From the NCBI GenBank assembly GCA_027026255.1, contig JALVOT010000014.1, positions 149,986 to 213,985 on the forward strand: DNA of 64,000 nucleotides, written 5' to 3'. Numbering within the stretch: the first letter of the stretch is position 1; every line of letters begins with the position of its first letter. The translations under genes were made by a program, and so were the position numbers. The notes beneath the pieces were generated by a model, which did no database searches, was not told the origin of the DNA, and was given only the letters and a program-made list of their open reading frames with translations. This DNA is from Caldifarciminota bacterium. GTDB taxonomy: Bacteria; Hydrothermota; Tepidihabitantia; SM23-42. Of this stretch, positions 2,094-4,896 are shown piece after piece.

Positions 2094-3320
2094 ATGCTAT
2101 TTCGTGGTTTCTGGCTTCTGGTCATATTGGGTATTGGTTGCACAACCAGTGCCCGGATTGATAATACCGGTCCGGATATGAAAGGAACCGGTATTATTGC
2201 CAGGGCAAATAACCGATTCGCCCTGGAGATTTTTACACAAATCAAAAAGCACCATAAAGATGAGAATATCTTTTTCTCACCACTCAGTATTGTTACCGCC
2301 CTGACTATGGTTTATGAAGGGGCAAGGGGACAGACTGCTAAAGAGTTGGAACAGGTTCTTCATATTCCATCCGAACCAGAATCGAGAAGGCAGAATTTCG
2401 CCCATCTGATTAATGAACTGAACCGAAAAGATAAAAAATATACACTTGGAATAGCCAATGCACTCTGGGCACAGAAGGATTATAGGTTTTTAAAGAAATA
2501 CTTTCAGGTTATTGAAAAATACTATCAGGGCAGGGCAATCAATGTTGATTTCGTTAAAGAGACTGAGGAAACACGAAAGAAGATAAACAACTGGGTTGAA
2601 GAAAAGACTAAGGGTAAGATTAAAAATCTGATTCCGGAAGGAACCCTTAAACCACTTACCAGATTGGTGCTCACAAATGCAATTTATTTTAAGGGGAACT
2701 GGGCACAGCAGTTTGATAAGCAATTAACCCATAGCGAAGAATTTCAAACCCTCAGTCGGGATACGGTTAAGGTTCCAATGATGAGTTTTACCGGAGATAA
2801 GGCAAAGTTTAATTATGCCGAGATTGAAGGGATACAGATTCTGGAACTACCTTATGAGGGTGATGACCTATCAATGTTGATTTTATTGCCTGAACCCGGC
2901 AAGGTCGCGGCTTTGGAAGAATCATTGAGTTTTGATAAACTTACCAGATGGCAGGGTTTACTCAGAAAACAGCAGGTTGATGTCTACCTGCCGAGATTCA
3001 AACTAAAGACAAAGTATTTTCTGGCAAAGATTTTGATTGAGATGGGAATGCCATCGGTATTCGGCGTAAAACCTACTGATTTTTCCGGGATGGACGGCAC
3101 CAAAAATCTTTCAATAAGTAAGGTGATTCATCAAGGATTTGTTGAAGTTAATGAAGAGGGAACCGAGGCCGCCGGAGCAACCGGTATAGTAATGGAATTG
3201 GCAATGAAGAAAAAAATTCCAATCTTTCGGGCTGACCATCCATTTCTCTTTCTGATTCAGCATAAACCAAGTGGCACCATTCTGTTTTTCGGTCGGGTTG
3301 GTAATCCGGATAGTCAATGA
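2094..3320 (+). CDS. Serpin family serine protease inhibitor, probable lipoprotein
   Basis: A 408-residue full-length serpin. The N-terminus is a short hydrophobic signal ending in GIGC, a slightly non-consensus lipobox, so export and lipid anchoring are likely. Family signatures include FFSPLSIVTALTMVYEGA near residue 60, NAIYFKGNW and the C-terminal FRADHPFLF. The reactive-centre hinge at about residue 354, EEGTEAAGATG, has the small residues at P15-P9 required for loop insertion, so this should be an inhibitory serpin rather than a non-inhibitory one. Counting from the hinge, P1 falls near Ala-Met in MELAMKKK, which would suit elastase- or subtilisin-like targets; this is an estimate. Start chosen from AAAGGAGG 5 bp upstream. 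It is driven by a duplicated promoter region. Confidence 0.95.
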   Translation: MLFRGFWLLVILGIGCTTSARIDNTGPDMKGTGIIARANNRFALEIFTQIKKHHKDENIFFSPLSIVTALTMVYEGARGQTAKELEQVLHIPSEPESRRQNFAHLINELNRKDKKYTLGIANALWAQKDYRFLKKYFQVIEKYYQGRAINVDFVKETEETRKKINNWVEEKTKGKIKNLIPEGTLKPLTRLVLTNAIYFKGNWAQQFDKQLTHSEEFQTLSRDTVKVPMMSFTGDKAKFNYAEIEGIQILELPYEGDDLSMLILLPEPGKVAALEESLSFDKLTRWQGLLRKQQVDVYLPRFKLKTKYFLAKILIEMGMPSVFGVKPTDFSGMDGTKNLSISKVIHQGFVEVNEEGTEAAGATGIVMELAMKKKIPIFRADHPFLFLIQHKPSGTILFFGRVGNPDSQ

Positions 3321-3557
3321 TTTAAATTACGGTGACTTTTACTGGTAATTATTCAATAAAATACTGGAGGATTAACCGACTATAGTTTATCGATGATTAA
3401 ATTTTAAAGTGTATACGGAGTAACAATTATACTCCCTTAAATTAAGTATTAGTACTCATATTATTTTGGGTGGTAAAATTTCTTGAAAAGACATCGATTA
3501 TGATTACCCTTGAATGCGATATAAGTGAATAGATTTTTTGCAAGAAAGGAGGTTAAA

Positions 3558-4550
3558 ATGAGAAATACAAAATTGCGTATTACCATTGATATATTCAGTG
3601 GTAGAGAAAATCCGGTTATAGAATTTACCGGTAAGAAACTTAAGGACCTCTCTGAAAGGTTATCACCGGTCAGTAAAATTGAAACAAGGCAGTTAGGTAT
3701 TCCCTTAGAACCAACTCTGGGTTATAGAGGACTTATCGTAGAACAGGTTGGACGGCCTTTAAAAGGACTGCCAGCAATATTTCGTTTTGCTTCCGGCACA
3801 ATTATTGGCCGTGAGATTTCTTTTAGTACAGCCGACAAAAATTTTGAAGATTTCATTTTAGCGAATCTTCCTAAAAGCTTACCATTGAAAAGTTTTAAGA
3901 AAGAGTTTAAGCGTTTCAAAGAATTGATTGAATTTCGTAATAAGCAGTATTGGCATCATTCTTCGAGTGAAGACAAGGTTTCAGAGGATTTAATGATTGA
4001 TGATGACGAGCTGTTGAGAGAAGTTAAATACTTTAAAGAACCAATAGATCGGGTCCCCCGTTATTGGCCTTGGCCACCTTTTAGCTGGTGGCACAGGTGT
4101 AAATATTTTTGTGCGCCAATTTACGAACCATCCTGGTGGAATGTACCAAATATACAGCCTTATAATAATTGCTACAATTATGCTACAAACTACCGAACAG
4201 ATACATTCGCCCAGCCAGGTAAAGCATCAGGCTCTATCTATAGTGTTATAAACTGTAATGATGTTAAAGCAGGAGCGATTGCCGATGCATTAATTGATGC
4301 ACCATATGCCAATAATAAATATCCGACAACAGGACATCTTGTGGCACTGGTTATCTGGCCAGGTTTTGATTTTCATTGGTATAGAAAAGATAGATACGGA
4401 CGCTGGTCTCATAAACCAGGACGTACTCCGGTAACCAATAAAGATAATAGTGGCAATTTAATCTATGATCCCAGAACGGCTGACCGAGGTCCTTATACTG
4501 ATTTCTGTACATTTATGATTGTTAAACATGGTCATATAAAAATTAGATAA
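3558..4550 (+). CDS. Two-domain protein: FSGR domain plus putative Cys-His hydrolase-like domain
   Basis: 330 residues, starting at the ATG behind AAAGGAGG; an earlier in-frame ATG at 3525 would place the ribosome-binding site inside the gene. Residues 5-115 form a domain with FSGRENP (13-19) and LGYRG (54-58) that recurs as the whole of the next gene. After an acidic linker and a Trp/Pro-rich stretch, residues 190-325 hold NNCYNYA (Cys205), TGHLVALV (His260), DFHWYR (His273), WSHKPG (His285) and NKDNSGN (Asp296). Conserved-looking Cys and His residues suggest, but do not prove, a papain- or NlpC-like hydrolase. No signal peptide or membrane segment is seen. I recall neither domain having an established function. 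Confidence 0.7.
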   Translation: MRNTKLRITIDIFSGRENPVIEFTGKKLKDLSERLSPVSKIETRQLGIPLEPTLGYRGLIVEQVGRPLKGLPAIFRFASGTIIGREISFSTADKNFEDFILANLPKSLPLKSFKKEFKRFKELIEFRNKQYWHHSSSEDKVSEDLMIDDDELLREVKYFKEPIDRVPRYWPWPPFSWWHRCKYFCAPIYEPSWWNVPNIQPYNNCYNYATNYRTDTFAQPGKASGSIYSVINCNDVKAGAIADALIDAPYANNKYPTTGHLVALVIWPGFDFHWYRKDRYGRWSHKPGRTPVTNKDNSGNLIYDPRTADRGPYTDFCTFMIVKHGHIKIR

Positions 4551-4566
4551 AACGATATTTTGAAAA

Positions 4567-4896
4567 ATGACAAAATGTAAGGCGCGTGCATTTATATTTT
4601 CAGGTCGTTCTGATCCAATCTGGTTTCTTAATGAACAACAAAAGAATAAACTCATTATGCTTTGGGAAGGATTTGATCCAGCAAATGCTCAGGTACATAT
4701 CGAGTCAAAATTGGGATACCGTGGTGTATCAATGATATGCCCTGATTATGGAGAATTTTTTGCTTACGGAAGATATGTGAGAAGAATGATTAATAATCGA
4801 ATTGAATGGCGAGTTGATGATAAAAAACTATTCGAACAGTTTTTATTATCCACTGCACCCGAAGGATTGCTGCCTCCTGAGATTTTTAATACCTGA
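4567..4896 (+). CDS. Stand-alone FSGR-domain protein
   Basis: 109 residues, 16 bp after the preceding gene and probably co-transcribed with it; no Shine-Dalgarno sequence is evident. The sequence aligns along its length with residues 5-115 of the preceding protein: FSGRSDP at 11-17, KLGYRG at 48-53, a Phe/Ala/Gly-rich strand, then DKKLFEQFLL matching DKNFEDFIL. It is therefore a single-domain paralogue of the N-terminal half of its neighbour. Possible roles are a regulatory partner, a dimerisation partner or an immunity-like inhibitor of the C-terminal domain next door, but none of these is demonstrated. Confidence 0.65.
   Translation: MTKCKARAFIFSGRSDPIWFLNEQQKNKLIMLWEGFDPANAQVHIESKLGYRGVSMICPDYGEFFAYGRYVRRMINNRIEWRVDDKKLFEQFLLSTAPEGLLPPEIFNT

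Follow-up and report, generated by a model that had tools for sequence, protein, structure and literature searches.

The protease SpeB, a C10 enzyme, is encoded next to its inhibitor Spi, which has been described as an analogue of the SpeB propeptide (PMC2873492; PMC3462683). Another thiol enzyme gene that adjoins the gene of its inhibitor is known from the staphopain-staphostatin pair (PMC2873492, PMC3462683). NlpC/P60-type enzymes possess a C-H-H triad, and a GD motif has been named for them (PMC10318531).

Here we describe a pair of genes from the window, by which we mean the whole stretch of 64,000 nucleotides that was analysed, from a Caldifarciminota bacterium with a genome of 2.1 Mb. 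By analogy with SpeB and Spi, we propose with about even confidence that the pair would encode a papain-like thiol enzyme and a dedicated control domain, termed the FSGR domain, which is supplied both in cis and in trans. Systems of this kind, in which an enzyme is accompanied by an adjacent cognate partner, are already known; both families and the cis-plus-trans arrangement of the FSGR domain appear to be new. The libraries searched contain no name for either domain.

Organization and setting of the gene pair

Gene 1 (positions 3558–4550) encodes a protein of 330 residues, which contains one FSGR domain, one linker and one C-terminal domain (C-domain) of predicted papain-like fold; like the other parts of the pair, it lies on the forward strand. 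The start codon is the ATG at 3558, preceded by AAAGGAGG at 3545–3552, and the full length of the gene is kept in L002–L006. The cis FSGR domain (residues 5–110, positions 3570–3887) is predicted to be of α/β fold, with pLDDT mostly between 71 and 94; it carries the motifs FSGR (13–16) and LGYRG (54–58). The linker (residues 134–182, positions 3957–4103) is of low confidence in the model, and part of it is a window-specific insertion. The C-domain (residues 186–330, positions 4113–4547), a candidate Cys-His enzyme, contains NNCYNYA (203–209), GHLVALV (259–265), DFHWYR (271–276), WSHKPG (283–288) and NKDNSGN (294–300). Gene 2 (positions 4567–4896) starts 16 bp after the stop of gene 1; it encodes one free-standing FSGR domain of 109 residues, the putative trans partner, with FSGR at 11–14 and LGYRG at 49–53.

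Both reading frames and all the motifs quoted in the first-pass annotation are present, and its claim that the N-terminus of gene 1 and the whole of gene 2 share one domain holds as well. BLASTP aligned the two copies with an E-value of 6e-6 and 31% identity over the domain, a likeness that we judge from the sequences to be more than chance. The joint FSGR profile scores both copies at ∼1e-33; it was built from these copies and their relatives, so it contains them. Searches of Pfam, NCBIfam, PHROG, PADLOC and PDB sequences gave no significant family for either domain, and no PADLOC profile of the known anti-phage defence systems matched. Promoter and terminator scans remained at chance level. 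Neither window protein has a signal peptide; gene 1 has no hydrophobic N-terminus and contains no RHS, other trafficking region or delivery domain.

The AT-rich setting noticed earlier is real, albeit mild: the GC content is ∼0.37–0.38 for the pair and ∼0.30 for its flanks, compared to mostly 0.40–0.42 in the window. Upstream of the pair is one serpin gene (2094–3320, forward strand; PF00079, E 4e-128) with a lipoprotein-like N-terminus, and downstream is an AT-rich stretch without large open reading frames. The pair is present in only one of the 147 genomes of the host phylum searched; therefore, the host probably acquired it by horizontal transfer.

Recurrence of the pair and behaviour of the FSGR partner

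A contig scan identified five relatives of gene 1, from Chromatiales, Nitrospirae, Acidobacteriaceae, an alphaproteobacterial MAG and Belnapia moabensis, each directly followed by an FSGR gene. Eight more pairs came from sampled genomes of Alphaproteobacteria, Acidobacteriota, Gammaproteobacteria and Nitrospirota (assigned to groups by the title of the centre genome), giving 14 loci with the window. At all 14, which belong to several phyla, the C-domain gene is followed by the FSGR gene in the same order and on the same strand, and the two genes abut, overlap or are spaced by no more than 56 bp. These loci bear out the first-pass idea of a recurring two-gene cassette, and exclude that the pair is confined to this genome.

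The two proteins diverge in parallel. Across the 14 pairs, the distance matrices of the C-domain and the partner are correlated with r = 0.713, a value as high as which was reached in none of 10,000 permutations; the correlation shows common descent of the pair, and co-evolution may also be involved. Among the fused pairs, conservation is highest in the C-domain, with a mean identity of 60%, and lower in the cis (39%) and trans (34%) FSGR domains. In the FSGR tree, the cis copies and the trans copies from the window's group fall into two different clades, each with a support of 0.99, which argues that the two-gene form is old, was inherited as a whole and, as judged from the tree, has been transferred as one unit among very distantly related bacteria. 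At L003, genes 1 and 2 are in frame with each other; when sequences were aligned to their read-through, those of the partner fell on the N-terminal FSGR copy. L007 (4929–5835), a contig of viral type, carries a decayed copy of gene 1 with frame changes. FSGR genes without a C-domain neighbour were found at L084 and L085.

A constant gene neighbourhood was considered and rejected, since neighbours are common to the Nitrospirota-type loci only. At these loci the pair belongs to a common island that also encodes C39/C70-like and C13 peptidases (L077, 8110–9760; L078, 1468–2322 and 6107–6727; L003, 6321–8303); L003 and G1257 have two further conserved genes in common, with identities of 87% and 66%.

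Five of the pairs (G648, G1000, G1198, G1257 and G1260) differ in gene 1, which has another N-terminus without the FSGR domain; the FSGR gene still comes directly after it. Gene 1 of G1000 is cut by the contig end, leaving four loci in which both starts can be read. At these four, both proteins have a strongly hydrophobic, export-type N-terminus, with Kyte-Doolittle values of 2.4 to 3.2, whereas no fused pair exceeds 1.3. Because both proteins carry such N-termini, they seem to be exported together. The partners of G1198 and G1257 are 94% identical and their C-domains ∼75%, despite unrelated N-terminal halves of gene 1; therefore, the partner follows the C-domain. The export and partner patterns are correlations in only few independent lineages.

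According to our proposal, the C-terminal half of gene 1 would be a hydrolase or transferase that works through Cys205 and His273, to which His285, at a position that varies, would add a third residue. Supplied in cis by the N-terminal portion of gene 1 and in trans by gene 2, the FSGR domain would bind the C-domain and hold the enzyme inactive until it is needed, and gene 2 would protect the producer as Spi, encoded beside SpeB, does by analogy; catalysis, physical binding and inhibition are what we infer here. The main rival reading, rather unlikely in our estimate, takes the FSGR domain for a positive partner, namely one that binds substrate, acts as a chaperone or mediates oligomerisation in a heteromeric enzyme, instead of an inhibitor. 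Such a role would suit a domain found in cis as well as in trans, in the same compartment as the enzyme. Plasmid copies from Rhizobium and Streptomyces encode the fused protein with its cis FSGR domain and lack gene 2, relatives of which were not found in the plasmids searched; therefore, some loci can do without the trans copy, and these lone cis copies would also suit a positive partner. However, many C-domains elsewhere (in RHS tips, phages and Alphaproteobacteria with small genomes) have no FSGR domain at all, and a small same-strand gene after a thiol enzyme fits the inhibitor precedents. These C-domains without FSGR, the plasmid copies that lack gene 2 and the solitary FSGR genes of L084 and L085 also weigh against our own proposal.

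The C-domain in other contexts, its conserved residues and its predicted fold

In L042 (4047–5480), the C-domain is the tip that directly follows an RHS core (TIGR03696, E 4e-19); a second, weaker case is L061 (4554–5426), with the RHS core at E 1e-4. After each of the two genes comes one small gene that seems to encode a signal peptide or lipobox, and these are likely effector-immunity pairs, making effector use plausible for some relatives of the C-domain. Papain-like toxins, NlpC/P60 among them, have been described as RHS tips (PMC3482391), which also favours the reading of the window pair itself as an interbacterial effector, with the C-domain as polymorphic-toxin domain and gene 2 as its immunity gene. 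We consider this improbable for the window, because gene 1 lacks delivery features, be it an RHS or other trafficking region or a signal peptide. The C-domains of the window and the Chromatiales locus are 75% identical, which is conservative for a toxin in an arms race, and the RHS partners do not match the FSGR domain; they show only one weak match of 25 residues to each other.

Relatives of the C-domain were also found in other viral contigs, on plasmids of Rhizobium, Streptomyces and Vibrio, and in Alphaproteobacteria, several of which have small genomes. L011 (3261–5459) is a phage protein that combines a trypsin-like domain with the C-domain and is encoded close to a holin. Three viral proteins in BFVD (F2Y2U4, M1HB16 and A0A1V0SF80) match the predicted fold with E-values of 7e-10 to 5e-5; one of them is from Hokovirus, a giant virus. 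The viral entries L047 and L051 were noted together with the BFVD proteins as of the same predicted fold. On one Vibrio plasmid (L010, 1472–5552), the C-domain gene is part of a run of genes that also includes C45-peptidase, NTAN1-like and asparaginase-like ones, and tandem, diverged C-domain genes occur in small-genome Alphaproteobacteria (L025, 617–2280; L026, 618–2112).

Cys205 (codon at 4170–4172), His273 (4374–4376) and Arg276 (4383–4385) are invariant in all 34 C-domains aligned; Asn204, Pro220, Trp283 and Lys286 each occur in 33 of them. The position of His285 (4410–4412), assigned as candidate third polar residue from topology only, is occupied by His in 28 sequences, Gln in two, and Asn, Glu, Ser and Ala in one each. 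His260, which had been offered as catalytic residue beside His273, is not conserved and was rejected.

The AlphaFold2 model, built from 19 sequences, has a mean pLDDT of 77.9, mostly 85–97 in the C-domain. Cys205 begins the helix 205–210 and His273 is located on the strand 271–277. No match of the PDB fold search reached an E-value of 0.001, and TM-scores were low. Of the first 50 matches, however, at least 22 are enzymes of papain-like fold, from the NlpC/P60, MepS/Spr, Josephin, USP and C39 groups. A first AlphaFold2 run (six rows, pLDDT 56) was set aside for conclusions; papain-like (clan CA) enzymes are among the fold matches of that poorer model as well. The first-pass expectation of a papain or NlpC fold is supported by prediction, in that papain-like enzymes dominate the matches, although no single match is significant (best E 0.61); that of a candidate Cys-His enzyme is supported with its histidine corrected to His273. 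On the predicted model, the C-domain is very probably a papain-like enzyme.

We regard it as very improbable that the C-domain is a non-enzymatic binding domain, of papain-like or other fold. The individually insignificant fold matches would allow it, and the invariant Arg276 and nearly invariant Trp283 and Lys286 could be structural; however, an invariant Cys and His combined with a permissive third site, across 34 diverse sequences, is the pattern of an active site. That the enzyme matures the product of a peptide or natural-product pathway is hardly credible: one NRPS-like gene upstream and one phosphopantetheinyl-transferase-like frame downstream in Belnapia (assigned by eye) and radical SAM genes close to the G1257 and G648 pairs (the latter by eye) hint at it, but the window pair and most loci have no such genes around them, and recurring neighbours are restricted to the Nitrospirota-type loci.

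Significance and comparison with known systems

Two unnamed protein domains thereby gain a function that can be tested, and, if the proposal is true, the pair would be a further, independent example of an enzyme gene that adjoins the gene of a propeptide-type partner. It also ties a widespread, unannotated thiol-enzyme domain, found in RHS tips, phages, giant viruses and small-genome Alphaproteobacteria, to a partner, which offers a route to its activity. A broader proposal, which we put forward tentatively and consider possible but somewhat doubtful, is that of one unnamed papain-like family in bacteria, phages, giant viruses and RHS effectors, one mobile branch of which would be controlled by the FSGR domain as cis pro-domain and trans inhibitor.

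Like NlpC/P60 (C40) and other CHH-triad papain-like enzymes, the C-domain has a core of ∼140 residues with a predicted Cys at a helix start, a His on a strand and a candidate third residue that is often His. However, PF00877 matched neither the window protein nor any of 20 C-domain relatives, and the GD motif before the core strand is absent, the aligned position being H, Y, R, W or similar and never Asp; for these reasons, we regard the C-domain as a probable papain-like family of its own. By eye, the pattern NC...H-x-x-R...[SH]-K-x-G resembles that of DUF7689 (PF24738), which may be a distant relative. The DUF7689 profile matched two of the 20 members tested weakly (L048, E 0.0007–0.001; L011, E 0.029), and its cut-off of 22.6 was never reached, the best among the matches listed being 20 bits (L048). 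The other 18, including the window's, had no match, and DUF7689 contains no FSGR domain. Profile-profile comparison of the C-domain with DUF7689 and NlpC/P60 gave no alignment, at two to three sequences each, too few to inform. DUF7689 may itself be papain-like; three of its members (L044, L087 and L088) show NC...H-x-x-R...SKxG by eye, L087 together with a GD motif. Weak Imm53 matches to C-domains (E 0.006–0.05) were not taken as homology.

Like the papain-like RHS-tip toxins (Tox-NLPC/P60 and Tox-PL1-3), relatives of the C-domain directly follow RHS cores on two contigs; different from these and other polymorphic toxin systems, the window protein lacks both an RHS and a trafficking domain. 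Among the differences from the inhibitor precedents, staphostatins do not resemble the propeptide. SpeB and Spi share no sequence family with the window pair, for which inhibition is the proposed role; an exported zymogen, a trait of SpeB, is not seen in gene 1 of the window, whose proteins lack signal peptides, and export-like N-termini occur only in G648, G1198, G1257 and G1260. As in SpeB-Spi, however, the gene of a predicted papain-like enzyme lies beside a small gene whose product resembles the enzyme's own N-terminal domain, and it is because of this arrangement that we prefer control of the enzyme by the FSGR domain.
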